Shown: positions 10,493 through 49,428 of the stretch, in pieces | How positions within the stretch are numbered: position 1 is the stretch's first letter | Layout of the letters: each line of letters opens with the position of its first letter | Assembly (NCBI GenBank): GCA_016212005.1 | Contig: JACRHP010000016.1 | Location: forward strand, 1-61,626 | Direction of reading: 5' to 3' | Length of the DNA stretch: 61,626 bases | Origin: Candidatus Omnitrophota bacterium | GTDB lineage: Bacteria; Omnitrophota; Gorgyraeia; Zapsychrales; Zapsychraceae | Notes under the pieces: generated by a model | Database searches by the model: none | What the model was told of the DNA's origin: nothing | What the model saw: only the letters and a program-made list of their open reading frames with translations | Translations under genes and position numbers: made by a program

Positions 10493-11862
10493 GGCGCAAT
10501 CTCCTGGGCATCGGAGACAGCGGAAAGCGGGAAGACAATTTGCTTCTGCTGGGTGGGAATCCGCACAGCCCGGACCTTCGGCAACCCCTTTATGGCATAG
10601 ATTTTTTTTAACGAATCCGCTTCGAAGTTTATGTCCGCGGCCACAAAGACATTGCCGACCAACTGCCCTTTTTCCATGGATATGAAAGGATTTTTCAATA
10701 AAAAGCGGTCCATCGCTTCAGCGGGCCGGCATATCCGAAGGATGAAGACATTGTCATGGTGGTGATTGAACTGGACGACCGGGGCCCATTTTTCCTTGTA
10801 CTTGAGGACGCCGTCATTTAAAAAAGCCCGGCTCCCCCCCACGTTAATGCGCCGCAATTTGTTTTGTTCCATGAACCGAAAATAACCCACATAAAGCGCC
10901 GAAAGAACTTCTTTTTTGAGAAGTTCAAAGTCGCCGTCGAGGATACCGATCTTGCGTGGGGAAAAAACTCCCCGATGCATATTAACAATACTTCCCGAAA
11001 CATATTTACCCGTAGACTTATCTCTAACCAGAAGCAGCCACCCTTTTTTGAAATCCTCTCTGATGGCCGCATAAGGCAGCAGCATTTTTTCATCCGGATA
11101 CCGGTTGTGTATATAGGGAACGTACATTTTTTCGTAGAAAAACTTAAGCAAGACTTCGTCTCTTGTAAACTCGTGATCATAATTGTATTTTTTGAGCGCC
11201 TGGATATCGCTGTAGACGTTGCGATTTTTGGTGCGGGCGAAGTCCGAGAAGCCGTTAAAGGAGTCGTTCACCCGGTCGACCCATTTGGGGATAATGGCTG
11301 AGGCACCGAAAGAATCCGTTTCCTTTCGGATATAACGAAACCGCACGTCCGCCACGATAAAATCCATCCCGGCTGACCGGGCGTTAAAAACGTCAAGCAA
11401 TTTTTTCCGGCGAAAGGCCGTTTCTTTCTGGAGCGTGTATCCTTGTGGATAAAGGCGTTTAAGAAACGTCGGGTCGGGCTTGTTCTTGCATATGAAAATG
11501 CCCTTTAATCCCTCGTTTTGTTTTAAGTCGTTGACAACATATATGTTCAGGAATAGTTCATCCTTCAGCCGGAGTATGTTCTGGACCAGCCGGTTAGGGA
11601 ATCCGGGCAATCCCGCAAGGACGGACTTGCTAAAACCTTTCAACATTTTGAAGATACCAAGGTTGATCGACCTTAAATCATGGTCGCGCATAAATCCGAA
11701 ATACAATAAGTATAATGCCGTCATGGCCTGTTTTTTCAGGAGGCTGATATCGCCGTTTAACAGACCCATCCTCATCGGATAAAATACGCCATCCTTCCAG
11801 CGGACGGCGACGCCGGCCCAAACAACGCCGTGGAAAAAATGTTTTTTAAAGTCCTTAGTCAT
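10489..11862 (-). CDS. chimeric protein: flippase-like N-terminal leader plus duplicated GNAT/FemAB-like acyltransferase-type domain
   Basis: First 17 aa MTKDFKKHFFHGVVWAG match the flippase N-terminus; DGVFYPMRMGLLNGDISLLKKQAMTALYLLYFGFM and RGVFSPRKIGILDGDFELLKKEVLSALYVGYFRFM are internal repeats. Confidence 0.6.
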   Translation of the reverse strand: MTKDFKKHFFHGVVWAGVAVRWKDGVFYPMRMGLLNGDISLLKKQAMTALYLLYFGFMRDHDLRSINLGIFKMLKGFSKSVLAGLPGFPNRLVQNILRLKDELFLNIYVVNDLKQNEGLKGIFICKNKPDPTFLKRLYPQGYTLQKETAFRRKKLLDVFNARSAGMDFIVADVRFRYIRKETDSFGASAIIPKWVDRVNDSFNGFSDFARTKNRNVYSDIQALKKYNYDHEFTRDEVLLKFFYEKMYVPYIHNRYPDEKMLLPYAAIREDFKKGWLLLVRDKSTGKYVSGSIVNMHRGVFSPRKIGILDGDFELLKKEVLSALYVGYFRFMEQNKLRRINVGGSRAFLNDGVLKYKEKWAPVVQFNHHHDNVFILRICRPAEAMDRFLLKNPFISMEKGQLVGNVFVAADINFEADSLKKIYAIKGLPKVRAVRIPTQQKQIVFPLSAVSDAQEIAP

Positions 11863-11887
11863 TGTCCATGCTGCTTATTTTATTCCA

Positions 11888-11912
11888 GATACTGTCACTA
11901 TATGACAGTATC
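11888..11912. promoter_or_regulatory. perfect 10-bp inverted repeat, candidate operator
   Basis: gatactgtca-ctata-tgacagtatc, about 26 bp upstream of the ATG at 11862. Confidence 0.5.
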
Positions 11913-11934
11913 AGTACCTAAAATATAATAGCTC

Positions 11935-11965
11935 CCCGGACACTCCCGGAGTGTCCGGGTTTTTT
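11935..11965 (+). terminator. intrinsic terminator-like hairpin
   Basis: CCCGGACACTCC-C-GGAGTGTCCGGG followed by TTTTTT on the + strand. Confidence 0.55.
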
Positions 11966-12180
11966 CATTCCACCTTCCTCGCCAGGCCTTTGGTCGACCA
12001 GCGCTTCACCAGTCTTCCAGCACCCGCGGCGCCAGATAAAACGGCAGGGACAGCAGTCCGAAAGATTTTCCGGCGATCCCGATATTCTCTTTTTTGAGCG
12101 GTCCGCTGTAAATCCTTGTTAACCTGGCATCCGGGACGGCCCGGGCAAAACTGAATAAAGATTTTTATATGATGATACAA
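11965..12180 (-). pseudogene. degraded remnant including the 3' end of the DUF1016N-SNase gene
   Basis: ends STKGLARKVE*, nearly identical to LVDKGLARKVE* of the gene ending at 12239; a different frame just upstream reads FSFARAVPDARLTRIYSGPLKKENIGIAGKSFGLLSLPFYLAPRVLEDW*. Confidence 0.5.
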
Positions 12181-12238
12181 TGTTTATACATACATTGTAT
12201 AAGATACATACATACTTATGTCAAGCATGTATGCGGAT

Positions 12239-13084
12239 CTATTCGACTTTTCTCGCCAGGCCTTTGTCCACCAGCACCTGGTTGAGCAGTTTGCCGTTTT
12301 CGACGATCGTTTCGGGGGATGTTTCGCCGGGAAGGTAGTAGATGTCCACCGTGTAGCGGCCGTACTGGCCGAGCTTGTAGGTCTTCACCACGACCAGCGG
12401 CCGGTCGGCCCGCGTGCCTTTGGCGGAGGGTTTTTTCACGACGCATCGGGCGAGTTCCCTCTCGACAAACCGTTTGGCTTTGCGTCCTTTAGGGGTCCCG
12501 ATTTCCGGGGCGTTGATACCGCGCAGGCGCACGCGGTGCTCCTGTTTGCTCTTGAAACCGACGTCGATCTCCAGGTCAAACGTGTCGGCGTCCAGGATTT
12601 TGAGCACTTCGGCGGCGTAGGTGTATAGCCGCTGCGGTTTGACTTTGAGCGTCTTGCTCTGGTTCGCGGCCGCGGCGTCCTCAACGGCGCCGTAATAGTC
12701 TTTCTGGATCCGTTTGGTCAGCTCGTATTTGTTCCAGCCGTGCCGGCAGGCTTCCTTGAGATAAAATTCCCGCGCTTTGGCATCGTGCACCGCCAGGACA
12801 CAGCAGATCAGGCTCCAGCCGACCACCCGGTTGCCGTACTTTTCCGGATACCCTTTGGAAAACGCTTTGTAAAACTGGGTATACCTTTGCAGGGCCCAGT
12901 CCGGGACCTCGATCTCCCGGGCGATATCTTTGAGGAGCATGCCGGTGGAGTCCTTGTACTCCGTTGCCAGCCGGCCGGCGTCCCAATAGCCGCGCACCAT
13001 GGACAACTTGTCTTCATCTTCCAGCGAGTCGTCGATGCCGGAGAGGATCTTTTTGATCTGGGCGATGACCGGAGATTGTTCCAT
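12239..13084 (-). CDS. DUF1016 N-terminal-like domain fused to SNase (thermonuclease)-like domain
   Basis: N-term VRGYWDAGRLATEYKDSTGMLLKDIAREI...FYKAF; C-term VLKILDADTFDLEIDVGFKSKQEHRVRLRGINAPEIGTPKGRKAKRFVE. Confidence 0.75.
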   Translation of the reverse strand: MEQSPVIAQIKKILSGIDDSLEDEDKLSMVRGYWDAGRLATEYKDSTGMLLKDIAREIEVPDWALQRYTQFYKAFSKGYPEKYGNRVVGWSLICCVLAVHDAKAREFYLKEACRHGWNKYELTKRIQKDYYGAVEDAAAANQSKTLKVKPQRLYTYAAEVLKILDADTFDLEIDVGFKSKQEHRVRLRGINAPEIGTPKGRKAKRFVERELARCVVKKPSAKGTRADRPLVVVKTYKLGQYGRYTVDIYYLPGETSPETIVENGKLLNQVLVDKGLARKVE

Positions 13085-13099
13085 GTCTTCCTTTCGCGA

Positions 13100-14266
13100 T
13101 CACCCCGGAGACTGCCGGTGCTGCCTGCCCGGCGCAATCGCGTCTATCAGGCTGGATAAGTTTACAAAATGAACTTTGGTCCCAAGGATGACGCGGCTGA
13201 TGGTCCTGGCCGCGTCGTGACTGACGACATATGCTTCACTTTGCGGATACTGGCGCAAAAAGGCCTCAAGATTGCGCGCGTCAAATTCCGCGCCCTTCCA
13301 TTTGCATTCCACCGCGATGCAAGGTTTTCCTTCCCGGGGAAACACGAAATCGATCTCATGCCCCCGCTTGTCCCGCCAGTAGCATATTGGACGCGTTTGC
13401 AAATGGGCATGGATTTCGTTGAGCACAAAATGTTCCCAGAGCGGCCCCATATCGTCGGGGCGGATTTCGCGCCACCCGCGGAAATAACAAAAAAATCCCG
13501 TGTCAAATCCGTAGACCTTGGGCGCGGCAACGATCTCGGTCGCCCGGCGCCGGCTGAACGGCCGGACGACATGGACAACATATGTGGCCTCTAAAATTTT
13601 GAGATAATTGTTGATGGTCGCGCGGCTGACCTCACAGGGCCCGGCGAAACGGGTGGCCTCAAAAATCCCGCCGCTTTGAGCCATCAACAGCTCAAAGAAT
13701 TTCTGGAAGGAATACCGCTTTCCCAGGCGGAATAATTCCTGAACGTCCTTCGCCCAATACGCGTCCGCCCATTCCTGGATATCCCTTTCTGGGAATTCAT
13801 CCGACATAAAAAACGGCGGCAATCCGCCGAACAAAAAACGGTGATTCCAGTCGGGCCGGCCGAAATTTCTCAAATCTTCGCTCATCATCGGAACCAGCCA
13901 AACTTCACTCTTGCGGCCGGTCAGGGTGTCCCGGAATTTTGCCGACGCCCCCAACAAAGAAGAACCGGTGGCAATAATTCCGGTTTTGGGATAGTGATCC
14001 GCGGCAATCTTGAGCAATTCAGACGGATTAGCCAAACGGTGGACCTCATCAAGGACGATGCGCTTCCCGCGCACGCTGTCCAGGAAGCCTTCGGGGTCGT
14101 CCATCAAGGCCCGCACGCGGGGCAATTCGCAGTCAAAATATTCGATATCTTTAAGGGATTGGCAGAGGCAGGTCTTCCCTGCCCGGCGCACGCCCGACAG
14201 CCAGATGACGGAGCGTTTCTTCCAGCTTGATTCAATCTTGCGGATCCAGAATTCGCGGTTTACCAT
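13100..14266 (-). CDS. AAA_14/DUF4143-type ATP-binding protein
   Basis: VIWLSGVRRAGKTCLCQSL Walker A; IVLDEVHRLANPSELLKIAADHYPKTGIIATGSSLLG; CYWRDKRGHEIDFVFP. Confidence 0.88.
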   Translation of the reverse strand: MVNREFWIRKIESSWKKRSVIWLSGVRRAGKTCLCQSLKDIEYFDCELPRVRALMDDPEGFLDSVRGKRIVLDEVHRLANPSELLKIAADHYPKTGIIATGSSLLGASAKFRDTLTGRKSEVWLVPMMSEDLRNFGRPDWNHRFLFGGLPPFFMSDEFPERDIQEWADAYWAKDVQELFRLGKRYSFQKFFELLMAQSGGIFEATRFAGPCEVSRATINNYLKILEATYVVHVVRPFSRRRATEIVAAPKVYGFDTGFFCYFRGWREIRPDDMGPLWEHFVLNEIHAHLQTRPICYWRDKRGHEIDFVFPREGKPCIAVECKWKGAEFDARNLEAFLRQYPQSEAYVVSHDAARTISRVILGTKVHFVNLSSLIDAIAPGRQHRQSPG

Positions 14267-39237: not shown

Positions 39238-40035
39238 TTATCTGTTCAGTTTCAGCACTTCGTTCACAACGCCGACCAGTTCCCGGACGTCCTGGTAGAT
39301 GACAAAACGTTCGATGCCGTCTTTGCCGTTTTGGGGGAGCGTTTGCCCCGCCGCTACGACTTTGTCCGGCGAGGCCTGCGTGTACAGAATGAATTTGACT
39401 GCCTGCGTCTTGGCCATCTTTTTGAGTTTTGAAATGACTATATCTCCCGGGAAATCGGGCAGCGTCAGCTTGACAAGGGCCAGATCGGGGACCGTGGCGG
39501 CGACACGGTCGATGGCCTCGGTCCCGTTGCGCACCAGGTTCACCTCGAACCCGGCCGTCAGCAACGCCGCGCCGATCGCGCCGCATGCCTCGGGGTCGTT
39601 ATCGGCGACACAGATATGCGTCGGTTGGTTCTTGTCTTTGGGTTTTGCCTCTTGAGAGGATCCTGATTTTTTCTGCAGGATGGTCTCCACCTCGGTGAGC
39701 AATTCCTCTATTTCAAAGGGCTTGGACATAAACCCGTCCGCTTCCAGTTCCTTGAACAGCTGTTCCATGTTGGCGCGGGCCGTCAAAACCAGCACGGGAT
39801 ATTTGGGCCGGCTCCATTCATCACAGGTCTTTTGGTAAAATTCGATGCCGCCCATGATGGGCATGTTCATGTCCAGGACGATCAAATCCGGTTTCAGGGA
39901 TTTGAGCATCTCCAGCGCTTCCTCGCCGTTGTCGGCGGTTTCGACGTTATAACCTTTCGACTTCAGGACCATCTTGACCAGTTGTTGCAGGTCGGCCTCA
40001 TCATCGACGACCAGGATCGTTTTTTGTTCTCCCAT
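39238..40035 (-). CDS. response regulator with two REC domains
   Basis: TILVVDDEADLQQLVKMVLKSKGYNVETADNGEEALEMLKSLKPDLIVLDMNMP; second REC-like region THICVADNDPEACGAIGAALL. Confidence 0.85.
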   Translation of the reverse strand: MGEQKTILVVDDEADLQQLVKMVLKSKGYNVETADNGEEALEMLKSLKPDLIVLDMNMPIMGGIEFYQKTCDEWSRPKYPVLVLTARANMEQLFKELEADGFMSKPFEIEELLTEVETILQKKSGSSQEAKPKDKNQPTHICVADNDPEACGAIGAALLTAGFEVNLVRNGTEAIDRVAATVPDLALVKLTLPDFPGDIVISKLKKMAKTQAVKFILYTQASPDKVVAAGQTLPQNGKDGIERFVIYQDVRELVGVVNEVLKLNR

Positions 40036-40052
40036 ATTCTTCTCCCTTATGA

Positions 40053-40115
40053 CGGTTAATGGTAAATAGCGAATGGTTATTTGACAAATTACCATTCACC
40101 ATTAACTATTTACTG
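40053..40115. repeat. hairpin of degenerate 7-mer repeats (class GGTTAAT)
   Basis: ggttaat ggtaaat agcgaat ggttatt ... aattacc attcacc attaact atttact. Confidence 0.8.
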
Positions 40116-41284
40116 GTAAAAGGCAACCGCCGCTCCTGTATGGGCAATATGAAACTGAATGTCGAGCCCTTGCCCGGGGCAGACTCGACCACCACTTTCC
40201 CCCCGTGGCGGGTGATGATCTCCTTGCAGATCGCCAGCCCCAGCCCTGTCCCGCCTTCTTCGTTTTCTTCCGGCGATTCGATCTGCTGGAATTTCTGAAA
40301 GAGTTTTGGGATATCCTCTTCGGCGATACCCTTGCCTGTATCGGTGACGCTCACGACGATGTGGTTGTTCGCCGACCTGTCCTGGCTTGTGACGGTAATA
40401 CCCCCTTCTTTGGTGAACTTGATCGCGTTGCCTAAAAGGTTGTTCAGGACCTGGATGATGCGGTCGCTGGCAAACGGGACCCTGGGGATACGCGTGTCCA
40501 GTTCAGTTTTGAGGTATAGCCCGCGGCTTTGCGCCACGTCCCGCAGACTGTCCGCGACCTCCTGGACGACGTGGTTGATGTCGTTCATCTGGAAGTTCAT
40601 TTCGAGCTTCCCGGACTCGATCTTGGTCAGGTCCAGGATATCGTCAACGAGGTGTCTTAAACGGTCGACGTTTCTTTTGGCGCGGTCCAGGACCTCTTTT
40701 TGTTCGTTGGTGACGTCACCGAGCATTTTTCGGGCGACCAGGTCGACGGCCGTTTTGATGGAGGCCAGCGGGGTGCGCAGTTCGTGAGACACCGTGGAGG
40801 TGAACTCCCGTTGCAGCTGGTACATGTCCACCAGTTTCCGGTTGGCGATCTCCAGTTCCTCGTTTTGGGCCCTCGTTTCTTCATACAGCCGCCGGTTCTC
40901 AACGACCAGGTCATAATAGGCGATGGCCTGGCGTATGGTGGCCAACAGCTCCGTCGTTTTCCAGGGCTTGCTGATGAACCGGTATACTTGCCCCAGGTTG
41001 ATGGCTTCTTCCGCCGCGGAAAAGTCGGTATAGCCCGTGAAAAGGATCCGGATGACGTCCGGATGTTTCTCCTTGGTCTCCTGCAGAAATTTCACCCCCA
41101 GCATGGCCGGCATGCGGTGGTCGCTGACCAGGACCTTGATCTTTTCGCGCTCGAGGATTTGCCGCGCCTGCCCGACGTCGGTGGTGCCTGAAATACCGTA
41201 GGGTTCCTTTATAAAAAGCCGCTGGATCCCGTCGATGATGCTTTCCTCGTCATCGACAAACAAGACCTGGATGTCCTTGTCCAT
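40106..41284 (-). CDS. REC-HisKA-HATPase hybrid histidine kinase
   Basis: VLFVDDEESIIDGIQRLF; FTSTVSHELRTPLASIKTAVDLV; GTGLGLAICKEIITRHGGKV. Confidence 0.93.
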   Translation of the reverse strand: MDKDIQVLFVDDEESIIDGIQRLFIKEPYGISGTTDVGQARQILEREKIKVLVSDHRMPAMLGVKFLQETKEKHPDVIRILFTGYTDFSAAEEAINLGQVYRFISKPWKTTELLATIRQAIAYYDLVVENRRLYEETRAQNEELEIANRKLVDMYQLQREFTSTVSHELRTPLASIKTAVDLVARKMLGDVTNEQKEVLDRAKRNVDRLRHLVDDILDLTKIESGKLEMNFQMNDINHVVQEVADSLRDVAQSRGLYLKTELDTRIPRVPFASDRIIQVLNNLLGNAIKFTKEGGITVTSQDRSANNHIVVSVTDTGKGIAEEDIPKLFQKFQQIESPEENEEGGTGLGLAICKEIITRHGGKVVVESAPGKGSTFSFILPIQERRLPFTSK

Positions 41285-41355: not shown

Positions 41356-42585
41356 CTACAAACAAAACCAGGGTATGGCCGCAATATTTTCCGTCAACTT
41401 TTCTTTTCTCTCCCCCGTCGTGATAACATACCCTCGCCTGGCCAGGCCCTTGTAGTCGTTTAAAAAACTTTTCAGGCCTTTGAGTTCGGATAACGAAACG
41501 TGCGCTGAAGCTTTGATCTCAATGGGGATAACCTCTTCTCCCATATCCAGCACACAATCGACTTCCGCCCCCCCCGAGGTGCGCCAATAAAACACTTTGT
41601 AATTCTGGTTGAGGACTTTTATGCGCCGGATGATCTCCAGCATGACTCCATGTTCGAACAGAATACCCTTTTGAGCGTTTAACAATTTATCGGTCAAGGG
41701 CATCCGTGCGATAACATTCCTGACCCCGCTATCAAAGAAATAGTACCGGGGTGAAGACAGGATCCGTTTGCGGGCATTTTTGAGGAAGGGTTCGACTTTT
41801 TCGACAATCAGCGTGTCTTCAAGGATATGAAAAAATTCTTTGACCGCCGGCTGGCTCACCCCCGCCTCATTGGAAAGTTTCGTAAAGTTCGGATTGGTCC
41901 CCGACTCCGCCGCCGCTAATTCCAGGAACCGCGCGAACGAACCGATTTTGCGGCTCAAGGCCTCCGCGCGGATTTCTTCTTCAAGATAAATTTGCGAATA
42001 GGCGGATAAAAAGTCCCGGCGGTCTTTTAAAGGAAGCTGGACGATAGCCGGCAGCGAACCGTATATCAGGGATTCCTCCAGGGAATACCCCGTCGATTTG
42101 TTCAAATTAGGCAATTTCAGTTGTTGAATTTCGCCCGGCTTCAGGAATCCCAGTTCTCCCCACAAAAGCGGGGTTAAATAAAAGCGCTTGATACGGCCCG
42201 GCAAAAGATTCATGCTCTGTCTGCGTAATTTTCTGGCTGAAGATCCGGTCAGGATGAATTTAGCTTCTTTATTGTCCAGAAGAAGCTGCACGGCATCCAG
42301 GAGCGCGGGGACTTTTTGACATTCATCGATGAAAACATACGGGTTTTTATCCAATGCCCGGACCAGATTGATCAGCCTGGAAGGGTTGGACTCAAATTCC
42401 AGGCGCAGAGACGGATCTTGCAGGAGATAGTTTTCCTTATTTTTTACCGGCTCAAGGCCTGTTTGGACGAGAGTGGTTTTACCGACTTGACGCGGCCCCA
42501 GGATCAGGCCTGAGTAGCCGTCCTTGATTAACCGGCCCAGTGTTTCATCCAGGTATCTAAATAATTGTTTATTTTTACCTTGCAT
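41356..42585 (-). CDS. AAA/DUF4143-type ATP-binding protein
   Basis: GLILGPRQVGKTTLVQTGL; VFIDECQKVPALLDAVQLLLDNKEAKFILTGSSARKLRRQSMNLLPGR; FYWRTSGGAEVDCVLD. Confidence 0.9.
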   Translation of the reverse strand: MQGKNKQLFRYLDETLGRLIKDGYSGLILGPRQVGKTTLVQTGLEPVKNKENYLLQDPSLRLEFESNPSRLINLVRALDKNPYVFIDECQKVPALLDAVQLLLDNKEAKFILTGSSARKLRRQSMNLLPGRIKRFYLTPLLWGELGFLKPGEIQQLKLPNLNKSTGYSLEESLIYGSLPAIVQLPLKDRRDFLSAYSQIYLEEEIRAEALSRKIGSFARFLELAAAESGTNPNFTKLSNEAGVSQPAVKEFFHILEDTLIVEKVEPFLKNARKRILSSPRYYFFDSGVRNVIARMPLTDKLLNAQKGILFEHGVMLEIIRRIKVLNQNYKVFYWRTSGGAEVDCVLDMGEEVIPIEIKASAHVSLSELKGLKSFLNDYKGLARRGYVITTGERKEKLTENIAAIPWFCL

Positions 42586-42616: not shown

Positions 42617-45115
42617 TCAAATCTCTGTTTGCGCCTTTTTCTCCACGGGCAGCATGACCGTGAACGTCGTCCCGGCGCCCGGTTGCGATTGCACCCTGAT
42701 GTCCCCGCCGTGTTTTTTAATGATCTCGTAGCTGACGCTCAAGCCCAGTCCCGTCCCCTGGCCGACGGGTTTGGTGGTGAAGAACGGGTCGAATATCTTT
42801 TTGATGTTCTCTTCGGGGATGCCTTTGCCGGTGTCGCGGACGTCCGCGCAGACATATCCGTCCCGCAGGGAGGTCTTGATCTCGATCGTCCCTTTTTCAT
42901 CCATCGCCTGCGCGGCGTTCATCAGCAGGTTGATAAAGACCTGTCCGATCCTTTGCGGGCTGCCCAGGACAAACGGTGTGTCGGCGTAGTCTTTCTTGAG
43001 CTCGGCCTTGAACTGGATCTCGTGTTGGACGATATTGAGGACCCCTTCGATGATGTCTTCGACCTTGACCCGTTCCACGGTGTCCTTGTCGTCCCGGGAG
43101 AACGTGCGCAGGTCCATGACGATCTTGCGGATACGCTCGATGCCCGCGCGGGTGTGCCGCAACAGCTCGGGGGTGTCCTTCATAAGGTAATCCAGGTTGA
43201 TCTCGGTTTCTATTTTGGCGATTTCCTCCAGGGCTGTCTTGACCGCGGCCCAGTTTTCTTGCCGGACGGGTTCTTTCAGACCGCTGGTCGCGCGCAGGAG
43301 CCGGGTGTAGTCGTTGACGTATTGTTCCAGGATCTCGACGTTGTTGCTGACGAACCCCACGGGGTTGTTGATCTCATGCGCCACACCGGCGGCCAGCTGG
43401 CCGATGGAGGCCAGTTTCTCGGTGTGCAGGACCTGCATCTGGATCTGCTTGAGTTCCTCGTGGGCTTTTTTCAAATCGGAAAGGGTCAGGGACAGGACCC
43501 GCTCTCTTTCCATCAGGTCCCCGTTCATCGTCGCCAGGATATTTTCCATGCGGATGCGCGCGGTGATGTCGTGCGCCACGATCACATAACCATGGACTGC
43601 CGTGGCGTCTGTGCCGTCCCTGCCGGCCTCCGGCGGGACGTTTTGACGCAGCACGCTCCATGAAACGCTGACCGGGATCTCGTCCCCCGCGCTTGTTTTT
43701 AATTTTGTCTCCTGCCCGCCGGCGGGACTTTTGTTCAGCCATTGTCCCGCGGCCGTGTCTTTTTCATATATCTTTTTCATGAAAATCGAATTTACGTCCG
43801 CCCCGACGAGTTCTTCTTTTTGGTGCCGGGTAAGCGTGCACGCGGCCGCGTTGACGTTCTCAATTTTTCCCTCGTGGTCAATAACGATCAACGGGTCAAG
43901 CATGGATTCTATAATATTGTTAATGTATTCCTTGGCCGCGAGCAGGCCGTCCCTCGATTTTTTCAGGTCGGCGGTCATCTTGTTGAAGGCATCAGCGAGC
44001 TGTTCGACTTCGTCGCCCGTGCGGATCCGGATCTTTTTGGAGAGGTCCCCTTGCGCGATCAGACGGGTGCCGTCGATGAGTTTCCGGATCGGGATTTCAA
44101 AACGCCTTGACAAGAAAATGCCGGTCAGGAGGACCGGCAAGAGGATGATCAGGCCGACGGCCGCAAGCTGGCTGCGGAGTTTGGCGTTGAAGGTGGTTGT
44201 CATGTGGATGTTCAGCAGTGTCAGGACACTCCAGCCCAGACCCTTGAAATCGCCGTACCCGTTTGAACCCGCGTATCCGATGATCCATTTCTGGCCGTTC
44301 GGATCTTTCTCAGCCAGGTATCCTTTGTCTCCCTTTATAGCCAGGCGGGCGGATTCATAGTTCAGGGAAAAATAATTTTTGGTAAATTCGGACACTGTTT
44401 TTTTCCAATAGTTGGGGTCCTCCGGGTGACGCCCTTTTTCTTCAAACAAAAAGTCGGGCGCGGCAACAATGGCGCCTTTGCCGTCCAGCAGGACGGCAAA
44501 GGCGCCATTGGATTGCCCCCGCTCGGTGACCTTGATGGAATTCGTTAACCGGGAGAGTTCCTCCAGGCCGAGCAGCCCTGACAAAGAACCGATCACTTGC
44601 GTGTCATCAGAGGAGGCCTTGACGGGTATGGAAAACCTTATGCCGAAACTGCCGGTTTCCTGGTCGAACTCTATGTCGTGGATATGGTATTCTTTTGTTT
44701 CCATCGTTTCCAGATACCACGGTTCGCCGGAAACGTCGTGGCCGATGCTTCCCGGTTCGCTCGAGGCGATGATCCTGCCCTGGTTGTTGACGCAGAAAAG
44801 GCCGGTGTAGACCAGGTAATTTTTTTTCATCCGCGTCAGGAATGTTGTGATACGTCCCTGCGTGTCGTTATCGATGACATCCTGCGTCAGGTCAATGCTG
44901 GACCATAAGGCGATGTCCTCTTTTTTTAAAAACAGCAAATTGTCGATCCTGGCCATGGATTGGGACGCCAGTTCTTCAAGTTTCAACCCGAGATTTTTTT
45001 CCAGGATATCCCTGCCGTTGATAAAGGCGACCCCGGCCATAATGGCCGAAGGGATGAGCGTGAGGATTATAAACAGGCCGATGAGTTTGAACCGGATGGA
45101 CAGGTTAAAGCGCAT
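42617..45115 (-). CDS. Cache-HAMP-PAS sensor histidine kinase
   Basis: N-terminal TM and Cache-like region; [46 protein letters not shown]. Confidence 0.93.
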
Positions 45116-45518
45116 GGTCTTTGCGTTCCGGCGTCGGGGTAATTTCGCGGACCGTGGCGATGACGAGGTCTTCCTGGGCCGTCTTGAGGGGGGCGAGGCG
45201 GATGTCCACGGGGATTTTCCGGCCGTCTTTGGTCACACCGTAAAGGTCCATCCCGGTCCCCATCGGACGCGTCCTCGAATGTTCGAAAAAATGCCGGCAG
45301 TGCTGGACGTGCGGGGCCCTGAGATGTTCCGGCACGAGGACCTCGACGGGCTTGCCCAGCAGTTCCCGGCGGCTGTAGCCGAATATCTGCTCGGCCCGCG
45401 CGTTGACAAGGACGATCTCCCTTTTGCGGTCGACGACGATAATGCCGTCGGGCATCTCCTCCACGATCGCCTTGAATTTCAGCTCCGGCCCATTTTGGGG
45501 AACAGGCGCTTCGGGCAT
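45105..45518 (-). CDS. stand-alone PAS domain protein
   Basis: FKAIVEEMPDGIIVVDRKREIVLVNARAEQIFGYSRRELLGKPVEVLVPE. Confidence 0.85.
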   Translation of the reverse strand: MPEAPVPQNGPELKFKAIVEEMPDGIIVVDRKREIVLVNARAEQIFGYSRRELLGKPVEVLVPEHLRAPHVQHCRHFFEHSRTRPMGTGMDLYGVTKDGRKIPVDIRLAPLKTAQEDLVIATVREITPTPERKDHAL

Positions 45519-45558: not shown

Positions 45559-45894
45559 CTACCTTCGCCGGAGCAATCGCTTCACGGCTTCATGCGGCTT
45601 CGGAATATGGTTCTCGATAACATCGCCGACGATATCCCAATTAACCCCGAAATAGGCATGAATGATCTTATCCCGCATTCCAGCCATGCGCTTCCAGCCA
45701 ATCTCGGGGTGAGAGTCCTTGAATTTTTCCGACAAATTTTTCACAGCCTCACCGATGATTTCCAGGCTGCGGGCACAGGCCCGTTTCGAAACTTCATTAT
45801 TCGCTAATTGACGGTTTGACAGTGGAGAAATTTCTTTTAACAAGAAACTTGTCTCATCAAGAATATGCTTAAGGAAAACGTCATCGTGTTTCAT
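45559..45894 (-). CDS. hepT: HepT-like HEPN (DUF86) RNase toxin
   Basis: RSLEIIGEAVKNLSEKFK; RDKIIHAYF (RX4HXY); 14-nt overlap with MntA-like gene. Confidence 0.85.
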   Translation of the reverse strand: MKHDDVFLKHILDETSFLLKEISPLSNRQLANNEVSKRACARSLEIIGEAVKNLSEKFKDSHPEIGWKRMAGMRDKIIHAYFGVNWDIVGDVIENHIPKPHEAVKRLLRRR

Positions 45895-46195
45895 GCCATC
45901 TCACCTCCTTGCGCACCCGTGGAAGTATATAACGGCTTAGACTTTTTTTTGTGACAAGATCGACTTTGCGGCCTAACCCTTGCTCAAGGAATTCCAGGAG
46001 CCCCATATAATTATCAAAACTTGGCTTGACGAATTCTACCAGGAAGTCGACATCGCTGGTTCCGCTCTGTTGTCCGTGAAGACAAGAACCAAAGAGACCG
46101 ATCCGTTTTACCTGATATTTGGTCAGGATATTTTTGTGCTCTTTCAGAAACTCCATGATCCCCGGGGCTGATAATGTCTTTTTCTGCAGGATCAT
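45881..46195 (-). CDS. mntA: MntA-like minimal nucleotidyltransferase antitoxin
   Basis: RIGLFGSCLHGQQSGTSDVDFLVEF (GSX10DXD). Confidence 0.85.
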   Translation of the reverse strand: MILQKKTLSAPGIMEFLKEHKNILTKYQVKRIGLFGSCLHGQQSGTSDVDFLVEFVKPSFDNYMGLLEFLEQGLGRKVDLVTKKSLSRYILPRVRKEVRWHETR

Positions 46196-47472
46196 TGCGG
46201 CACCTCCTTACGTTTTTTTTCCACGGGCAGCAGGACGGTAAACGTCGTCGTCTGCACCTGGATGTCCCCGCCGTATTTTTTGACGATTTCCCGGCTGACG
46301 CTCAAGTCCAGCCCCGTCCCCTGGCCGACGGCTTTGGCCGTGAAAAACGGGTCGAGTATTTGATCCAGGTTTTGTTTGTCGATGTCCTTGCCGGTCTCGC
46401 GGATATCGACACAGACATTTTTGTCCCGCCGGTACGTCGTCACTTCAATGACGCCGTCTTCTTCGACGGCCTGCATGGCGTTGAGGAACAGGTTGATGAA
46501 CACCTGGCCGAGTTGCTGGGGGTTGCACTGGATAAACGGGGTATCGCCGTAATTCTTTCTGAACCGGGATTTGTGTTTGATTTCTCCCTGCAGGATGGTG
46601 AGGATAGCTTCAATAATATGTTCGATTTTTATGAGTTCCAGGTCACCCCGGTCTTCGCGCGCGAAGGTGCGCAGGTTGGTTATGATCTTCCGGATGCGTT
46701 CAATGCCTTTCTGGTTGTCCGTCAGGAGGTTGTCGACGTCGCCCAGGATGTAATCGAGGTTGATCTCTTCCTCCAGCTTCGTTATTTCCCCGGCGATGGA
46801 TTTGGCCTTGGGCAGATTTTCTTCCTGCACGCTTTCCTTGAGATGGTTTGCCATCACGAGGACCTTGCCGTAATCGCTGACGTACCGGCCCAGGACGTCC
46901 ATGTTGCTGCTGATAAACCCCATAGGGTTGTTAATTTCCTGCGCCGCGCCGGCGGCCAGCTGGCCGATGGACGCCAGTTGGCGGCACTGGAAGAGGTTGA
47001 CCTCAAGTTCCGCCCAGGCGGCCAGGCCCTCGAGCATCTTTTTTTCTTCTCCGGTCAATTCCCGGGGGACCGTGTCCTGGATGCAAAACGCGCCTATCCT
47101 GAAGCCCGTGGTATTTGACAGCGGATATCCGGCATAAAAACGGATGTACGGTTTTCCGGTAACGAAGGGGTTGTCCGCGAACCTCGGGTCTTTTTTTGTG
47201 TCCGGGACAAGTAATAACCCGTCATGGACCACGGCGTGGCCGCAGAAAGAGACAGCCCGCGGTCCTCCCGTGGATTCAGTGCCGATGCGGGATTTGAACC
47301 ATACGCGGCCACCGTCGACGAGACTTAACGTAATGAACGGTACGTTGAAAATATGTTTTGCCATTCTCACGATACGGTCAAACCGTTCTTCGGCCGGCGT
47401 GTCGAGGATGTTCAGGGCCCTTAACGCGGTAAGCCGTTCGGTTTCATTTCTGGGGACAGGGGCCTCGAGCAT
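46192..47472 (-). CDS. GAF-domain histidine-kinase-like protein with degenerate catalytic motifs
   Basis: GAF N-term; [21 protein letters not shown] (H to Q); DIRETGKDIDKQNLDQILDPFF; GTGLDLSVSREIVKKYGG. Confidence 0.88.
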   Translation of the reverse strand: MLEAPVPRNETERLTALRALNILDTPAEERFDRIVRMAKHIFNVPFITLSLVDGGRVWFKSRIGTESTGGPRAVSFCGHAVVHDGLLLVPDTKKDPRFADNPFVTGKPYIRFYAGYPLSNTTGFRIGAFCIQDTVPRELTGEEKKMLEGLAAWAELEVNLFQCRQLASIGQLAAGAAQEINNPMGFISSNMDVLGRYVSDYGKVLVMANHLKESVQEENLPKAKSIAGEITKLEEEINLDYILGDVDNLLTDNQKGIERIRKIITNLRTFAREDRGDLELIKIEHIIEAILTILQGEIKHKSRFRKNYGDTPFIQCNPQQLGQVFINLFLNAMQAVEEDGVIEVTTYRRDKNVCVDIRETGKDIDKQNLDQILDPFFTAKAVGQGTGLDLSVSREIVKKYGGDIQVQTTTFTVLLPVEKKRKEVPQ

Positions 47473-47490
47473 AACTCGCTCCTTGGTATA

Positions 47491-47575
47491 GTTGTAAGTC
47501 GTAAGTGATAAGTCGTAAGCGGGATAATCTAATTTTTTAGTTCTACTTACGACTTATGACTTACCACTTACCACT
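47491..47575. repeat. hairpin of degenerate 7-mer repeats (class CGTAAGT)
   Basis: gttgtaa gtcgtaa gtgataa gtcgtaa ... ctactta cgactta tgactta ccactta. Confidence 0.8.
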
Positions 47576-47580
47576 AGAAT

Positions 47581-49428
47581 TCATGTTTTAACAATGTCAT
47601 TTTCCATCCATTCCAGTTCACACGCCAGGGCCGCCCGGGCGACCGCGATATTCTGCCGGTCGCTGTTATGCTGTTCCAGGCGCAGCAGCCGGTCGATGCG
47701 TTCGCGCGCCGTCCGGCTGTAGAGGTCGGCCAGGTCCAGGACGTGCTTGTTTTCGTTTTGGGCCAGATGATGCGCGTACGCGCAGACGGCGGCCATGACG
47801 AAAAGTTCGACACCGATGTCCACGAGGCGGTTCAAAAGCGCCTGTTTTGCTTCCATTTTTTTCTGGTAACGCAGCATCCGGTGGAAAATGGTCCGGGCCA
47901 GGCGTTGGCTGGAGTGCTGGAGGTACACCGCGTGGGCTTTCAGCCGCGGGTGGATCTGCGGCGCGGGCCCCGGCGGCAGCCACAGCTTCGGGTACCAGGT
48001 CAGATAATAACTCAACAGATGCCCAATGCTTTTTAGTTTGACGGCAGTGGAGGTTTTGCCGCTTAAAAGAGGTTTGAGCCTGGCCAGGTGCGGGTCGAGG
48101 GCCTCGCGCGCGATGAACAGGTGCATGATCTCGGAGGTCCCTTCGATGATCTGGTTGATCCGCACGTCCCGCAGCACCCGTTCCACGGGCCAGTCTTTTT
48201 CTCCCCGGGCCTTGAGCGACTGCTGCTGCTCGTAGCCCGAGCCGCCGCGGATCTGCAGGGTCTCGTCGGCGATGAGCCAGCTGTGGTACGTGCAGAAATA
48301 TTTGGCGATGGCCGCTTCCAGGCGGATGTCCTTGTTTTTATCGTCGGCCATGGCGGAGGTGAGCCAGGTGACCGCGTCCATGGCAAAGGTGTGGCTGGCG
48401 ATGTAGCCGATCTTGACGGCGACGCTCTCGTGTTCGCCGATGGCCGCGCCCCACTGCTGGCGTTCCTTCGACCACTGCCGCGCGACCCGCAGACACCATT
48501 TGGCGATTCCCGTGGAGGCCGCCGGAAGGGTGAGCCGTCCGGTATTGAGCGTCATCAGCGCCAGTTTAAGCCCTTCCCCTTCTCCCAGGATGATATTTTC
48601 CCGCGGGACCTTGACGTTATTGAAACGCAAAATTCCGTTCTGGATGCCATGCAGACCCATGAACATGCAGCGGTGGACGACTTCAAACCCCGGAGTGTTT
48701 GTCTCGACAATGAAAGCGGTGATCTGTTTGTGCTCCTTGCCGTTGACCACCTTGGGAGGGGTGACCGCCATCACGACGATCACCTGGGCGATATTTCCGT
48801 TGGTGCACCAGAGTTTCTCGCCGTTGATGAGAAAATATTTTCCGTCTTCGACGGGGGTGGCGGTGGTGGTCATCCGCCGCGGGTCGGAACCGGCCTGCGC
48901 CTCGGTCAACGCGAACGCCGAAATGGCGCCCTTGGCGAACATCGGGAGATATTTGGCTTTTTGTTCTTCGGTGCCGAATAATTTCAAAGGCTGCGGAACG
49001 CCGATACTTTGGTGAGCGGAAAGTAAAACGGCCGTCGAGCCGCAGTAGCTGGACACCAGGTGGATCGCCCTGTTGTAATTGACCTGGCTCATGCCCAGCC
49101 CGCCGTATTTTTCGGGGACCTTGATGGCGAAGGCGCCCAGGCCGGCCAGGCCCTTGATGACGTTCTCGGGGATGATCCCGGTCTGGTCGACGGCGTTGGG
49201 GTCCAGGTTGTTTTTCAGGAATGTTCCGAGTTTCTCCAGGAAGGCGTCGCCCTTGCGTTTGTCTTGCGCGGACTGGACCGGGAACGGGTGGATGAGCGGC
49301 CAGTCCACTTTGCCATGAAAGATCTCCAGGGCGAAACTGGGATATTTCCATTCGGCCTCGCGCGACTGTTCGGCGAATTCGAGCGAGGCCTTTTTTTCGG
49401 CACCGATGTTTTTATCGTACAGGCTCAT
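47581..49428 (-). CDS. acyl-CoA dehydrogenase
   Basis: FALTEAQAGSDPRRMTTTATPVEDGKYFLINGEKLWCTNGNIA; RDVRINQIIEGTSEIMHLFIAREAL. Confidence 0.95.
   Translation of the reverse strand: MSLYDKNIGAEKKASLEFAEQSREAEWKYPSFALEIFHGKVDWPLIHPFPVQSAQDKRKGDAFLEKLGTFLKNNLDPNAVDQTGIIPENVIKGLAGLGAFAIKVPEKYGGLGMSQVNYNRAIHLVSSYCGSTAVLLSAHQSIGVPQPLKLFGTEEQKAKYLPMFAKGAISAFALTEAQAGSDPRRMTTTATPVEDGKYFLINGEKLWCTNGNIAQVIVVMAVTPPKVVNGKEHKQITAFIVETNTPGFEVVHRCMFMGLHGIQNGILRFNNVKVPRENIILGEGEGLKLALMTLNTGRLTLPAASTGIAKWCLRVARQWSKERQQWGAAIGEHESVAVKIGYIASHTFAMDAVTWLTSAMADDKNKDIRLEAAIAKYFCTYHSWLIADETLQIRGGSGYEQQQSLKARGEKDWPVERVLRDVRINQIIEGTSEIMHLFIAREALDPHLARLKPLLSGKTSTAVKLKSIGHLLSYYLTWYPKLWLPPGPAPQIHPRLKAHAVYLQHSSQRLARTIFHRMLRYQKKMEAKQALLNRLVDIGVELFVMAAVCAYAHHLAQNENKHVLDLADLYSRTARERIDRLLRLEQHNSDRQNIAVARAALACELEWMENDIVKT

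Follow-up and report, generated by a model that had tools for sequence, protein, structure and literature searches.

Among the signalling genes of a bacterium of the Candidatus Omnitrophota lies a sensor histidine kinase that has lost its phospho-acceptor residue and directly precedes a toxin–antitoxin (TA) pair, mntA–hepT. Is such a kinase a partner of the TA pair, or merely its neighbour? The question concerns one contig of 61,626 nucleotides (JACRHP010000016.1, assembly GCA_016212005.1), hereafter called the window. A first-pass annotation offered two answers: co-option of a sensor-like pseudokinase as a controller of the TA pair, or decay that began after TA insertion. The gene order that it described, with the kinase stop overlapping the mntA start and followed by hepT and a PAS protein, is confirmed by the minus-strand open reading frames (Table 1).

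Table 1. Features of the kinase array in the window (positions are those of the window)
Feature	Position	Strand	Basis or remark
Acyl-CoA dehydrogenase gene	47581–49428	minus	directly upstream of the GAF kinase
Pseudo-histidine kinase, GAF-HisKA-HATPase, predicted kinase-dead, 426 aa	46192–47472	minus	Pfam, conserved columns, G003 orthologue
Codon CAG, Gln178 at the phospho-acceptor His position	46939–46941	minus	the G003 orthologue has CAT
Altered ATP-lid boxes: Glu359, Asp363, Leu373, Ala379, Asp389	46306–46398	minus	conserved columns; codon model (omega about 2.9 for lid plus C-terminus)
ATGA, kinase stop/mntA start overlap	46192–46195	minus	sequence
mntA leader, Shine-Dalgarno AAGGAGG	46196–46210	minus	travels with mntA in G003; here the last kinase codons
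mntA, putative antitoxin, MNT nucleotidyltransferase, GSX10DXD (G36-S37-X10-D48-V49-D50)	45881–46195	minus	PF01909; sequence
hepT, putative toxin, HEPN RNase, RX4HXY (R74-X4-H79-X-Y81)	45559–45894	minus	PF01934; sequence
PAS-only ORF	45105–45518	minus	domain shares 50% identity with the second PAS of a 921-aa kinase in G001
Intact paralogous sensor kinase HK832, dCache-HAMP-PAS-HisKA-HATPase	42617–45115	minus	Pfam; in the tree, sister to the pseudokinase pair
DUF4143 ATPase	41356–42585	minus	after HK832 in reading order
RR-HisKA-HATPase protein	40106–41284	minus	after the DUF4143 ATPase
Response regulator	39238–40095	minus	after the RR-HisKA-HATPase protein

Catalytic lesions of the GAF kinase

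In Pfam, the GAF domain of the pseudokinase scores 50.2 bits and its HATPase_c domain 69.4 bits (cut-off 26.4; 103.2 bits in the intact neighbour); HisKA falls below threshold (24.8 bits, cut-off 26.9). The first-pass annotation had credited the protein with the whole HisKA/HATPase frame. The frame is indeed open and HATPase_c is recognizable. A 15-nt in-frame deletion near the C-terminus, which removes five residues of an S-x-P-G-x-G stretch, had been missed. The loss of the acceptor His and the altered ATP-lid boxes were correctly called. Gln178 occupies a column that holds His in all 35 reference kinase domains. The G1 box (DxGxG) is altered at Glu359 (46396–46398) and Asp363 (46384–46386), and the G2 box (GxGLGL) at Asp389 (46306–46308).

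The 35 reference kinase domains, from relatives of the same genus, family and order, share 65 columns at a conservation of 93% or more. Departures from these columns number 15 in the pseudokinase, 21 in its orthologue in the sister genome G003, and 0–6, mostly 0–2, in the other kinases. Therefore, the catalytic loss is real and beyond chance. Sequencing error was ruled out as its source, since the lesions are numerous and spread out. With the acceptor His gone and the ATP lid ruined, the data support a product of 46192–47472 that would no longer be capable of phosphotransfer. The predicted structure, made with eight sequences, has a mean pLDDT of 51, and below 50 in the lid, a quality too low for interpretation.

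A close comparison is with intact paralogues from the same locus, namely HK832 in the window, HK566 and HK929 in G003, and HK921 and HK879 in the congener G001. These share 54–60% identity with the pseudokinase over the kinase domain; in contrast to it, none has lost the acceptor His or the ATP lid. Further afield, the sole matches in a scan of genome contigs were a Vibrio GAF match and a delta-proteobacterial kinase.

Further features lie around the kinase. The PAS-only protein is probably a PAS domain stranded from a neighbouring sensor kinase, and its ORF begins with codons similar to those that open the GAF kinase gene. The DUF4143/AAA_14 ATPase, present in the window and in the congener G005 and not seen at the same place in G001 and G003, is matched by the PADLOC candidate model PDC-S01. 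A palindromic, MITE-like repeat of GTAAGTCGTAAG type lies at 47489–47576, between the acyl-CoA dehydrogenase gene and the pseudokinase; it has about 30 related places in the genome and is absent at the G003 junction.

The MntA–HepT pair and its junction with the kinase

The TA pair itself is of a familiar kind. Adjoining PF01909 and PF01934 genes encode a GSX10DXD motif in MntA and an RX4HXY motif in HepT, the motif combination that characterizes class I HEPN/MNT pairs; there, adenylylation of a HepT tyrosine by MntA silences the RNase (PMC7641770). By analogy with the studied homologues, HepT would be an RNase restrained by adenylylation of Tyr81 by MntA. The same families, an upstream mntA, both motifs and overlapping genes are found in Shewanella SO_3165/SO_3166 (PMC7641770); no difference from that system was found within the pair, and just the upstream neighbour is unusual in the window. 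A PDB sequence search gave one weak match for MNT (1wot) and none for HepT. HepT relatives are many on plasmids, every one below 60% identity, and a scan of viral contigs found one (39% identity).

The junction with the kinase is an ATGA overlap, and mntA and hepT overlap by 14 bp. Such overlaps are unremarkable. Of 49 pairs of neighbouring genes on the same strand in the window, 14 overlap, and in six, the kinase–mntA pair included, the overlap is exactly 4 bp. The final kinase codons (R-K-E-V-P-Q) are at the same time the Shine-Dalgarno leader of mntA, CGTAAGGAGGTGCCGCAATG. The overlap thus arises because the kinase frame runs through this leader. Similar leaders precede both mntA and the other MNT gene in G003, so that mntA retains its own ribosome-binding site in the window and in G003. 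Translational coupling would therefore be dispensable for mntA. The kinase–MNT junction sequence is common to the window genome and one G003 pair. As to the origin of the kinase tail, the shared CGTAAGGAGGTG..CAATGATCC junction is suggestive of a chimera with the 3′ end of a tandem, HK566-like paralogue, but the tail residues point to different paralogues.

Arrangement of kinase and MNT genes in relatives

Comparison rests on one sister genome, G003, of the same genus and 61% complete. Its kinase orthologue (84% nucleotide identity over 1085 bp) adjoins the same acyl-CoA dehydrogenase gene and keeps the acceptor His (CAT), so Gln in this position is not a shared trait. The orthologue is nevertheless broken: codon 156, in the stretch from GAF to HisKA, is TAG, and the ATP lid has been replaced by a short palindromic insert, the core of which occurs once in the G003 genome. 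Next come the intact kinase HK566 and, after it, another MNT-HEPN pair; mntA–hepT is not adjacent. In this second pair, immediately behind HK566 (contig L072, 6302–7138), the MNT gene shares its leader and first codons (ATGATCC..CAG) with mntA, and the remaining protein differs.

The mntA orthologue of G003 lies about 7.3 kb further on (L072, 11900–12214), behind the kinase HK929, with 92% nucleotide identity in an alignment that starts 15 bp upstream of the ATG. Only about 23 codons are left of the hepT beside it, and two genes follow that are AbiEi- and AbiEii-like by resemblance. The block that extends from mntA to the RR-kinase gene lies between the copies of a 37-bp direct repeat (94.6%), which mark an insertion or a local duplication. 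The segment between the repeats (11705–13803), with mntA, the hepT remnant and the AbiEi/AbiEii-like genes, sits at the junction of two signalling genes, and appears to be a case of an antitoxin retained after toxin loss. Synonymous divergence of mntA between the window and G003 is 0.23, below that of its neighbours (0.37–0.83); this agrees with movement after the split of the two lineages and is no proof of it. In G001 and G005, the interval (split over two contigs in G005) holds intact kinases only, with neither a GAF kinase nor an MNT gene. Collectively, these arrangements indicate that the histories of kinase and TA pair are separate, and the kinase is disrupted in both lineages independently of TA adjacency.

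Is the association of kinases with MNT genes nevertheless a theme? A survey of relatives gave 57 MNT/HepT loci, many of them duplicates, which reduce to about 36 distinct places. Within flanks of about 1.5 kb, a kinase is nearby in two of these, with the acceptor His intact in both and one of the kinases downstream, and no kinase lies beside any other MNT locus of the window genome. Within these flanks, a widespread association was thereby rejected. Within the array of the window genome and G003, all three MNT genes follow a kinase and junction sequence is shared, and thus the adjacency is locally recurrent. The proposed source is recombination at shared leaders and at repeated 3′ ends of kinase genes; the recurrence is the sole observation that keeps a functional kinase–TA link alive.

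These data bear on the co-option proposed by the first-pass annotation. In the form considered here, the pseudokinase would be kept by purifying selection as first gene of the MntA–HepT operon, with GAF sensing or kinase translation setting a signal-responsive supply of MntA through translational coupling or protein contact. The ATGA overlap and the recurrence of kinase–MNT adjacency within the hotspot speak for it. Nevertheless, overlaps are common in the window, mntA has a strong Shine-Dalgarno sequence of its own and a different position in G003, and other MNT–HepT pairs in relatives are not behind such kinases. The pseudokinase–mntA–hepT order, the conservation of which had been named as a check, is kept in no relative examined (G003, G001, G005 and the surveyed MNT/HepT loci), and no paper in the literature library searched combines the terms histidine kinase, toxin–antitoxin, HEPN and MNT domain. 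As the G003 kinase is also broken with no adjacent mntA–hepT, and the mntA orthologue lies elsewhere, co-option is not supported; that the pseudokinase controls the TA pair, in the operon scenario or otherwise, is very unlikely.

Selection on the kinase and the status of the pseudokinase

Between the window genome and G003, pairwise dN/dS is 0.28 for the kinase and 0.13–0.18 for four flanking genes and mntA. A codon model of nine kinase domains, run with purpose-written likelihood code, locates the difference. In the pre-lid region of the window lineage, omega is 0.12–0.16, no different from background, and omega 1 is rejected on stem plus tip (2dlnL 17); outside the lid, constraint equals that of the intact paralogues. 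In the lid and C-terminus, a partition of 73 codons only, omega is 2.9, indistinguishable from 1, versus 0.156 on other branches (2dlnL 12.0, p = 0.0005); since the G003 lid is missing, this estimate spans stem plus tip. The dN/dS comparison advised by the first-pass annotation thus finds relaxation in the lid and C-terminus and constraint in the rest of the kinase. Of the observations named there as adverse to its reading, a relative with an intact His and no adjacent TA exists, but relaxed selection is limited to the lid and C-terminus. A loss of constraint limited to the ATP site is compatible with recent death of the kinase or with its retention as a pseudokinase, and not with long neutral drift.

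This pattern is awkward for decay set off by the TA insertion, in which the cassette would have altered the 3′ end of the kinase and the remainder would drift neutrally. The last kinase codons are indeed mntA leader sequence and the lid and C-terminus evolve unconstrained, but the pre-lid region is not neutral. The G003 copy is disrupted with no adjacent TA, which weakens the TA insertion as a cause. The kinase-dead reading of the first-pass annotation is supported; plain decay set off by the insertion is very unlikely.

Constraint outside the lid in both lineages suits better a GAF-dimer protein retained, with no TA link, as a non-catalytic partner of the neighbouring kinases or response regulators. 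The frame is open, and an intact sister kinase and an RR-kinase adjoin. Moreover, DivL of Caulobacter, a sensor protein of kinase-like build that likewise has another residue at the acceptor His position, demonstrates that a kinase without this His can still act in signalling (PMC4211667). In DivL, however, the replacement (Tyr, or Ala in one homologue) is conserved over orthologues and the N, G1, F and G2 boxes are kept (PMC4211667); the window protein does not keep this set of boxes, having lost G1 and G2 and five residues by deletion, and has Gln in one of two known orthologues, the other retaining His. The premature stop and destroyed lid in G003 also argue against retention. A non-catalytic signalling role is possible, and a DivL-like partner of this kind is rather unlikely.

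Probably, then, the locus combines a duplicated, catalytically dead GAF kinase with an ordinary mobile MntA–HepT cassette, neighbours through recombination and not partners. A duplicated GAF sensor kinase would have lost its phosphotransfer capacity within an often-recombining kinase array, between the acyl-CoA dehydrogenase gene and the response-regulator/kinase gene. A standard cassette with its own ribosome-binding leader would have been brought to the kinase 3′ end, by insertion or recombination, and the ATGA overlap would have been created as the kinase frame read through the mntA leader. The kinase would be inactive or marginal in the cell, and the TA pair would work without it. Against this explanation stand the open kinase frame and the purifying selection outside the lid, neither expected to last under plain decay, the local recurrence of the kinase–MNT order with its shared junction, and a sample of one incomplete sister genome.

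The case is mostly one of ordinary genome turnover. It provides a clean example of how TA cassettes that land beside signalling genes by recombination can look co-opted. As catalytic loss is limited to the ATP lid and acceptor site and the rest is constrained, such kinases could serve to ask how frequently kinases of bacteria go through a pseudokinase phase.
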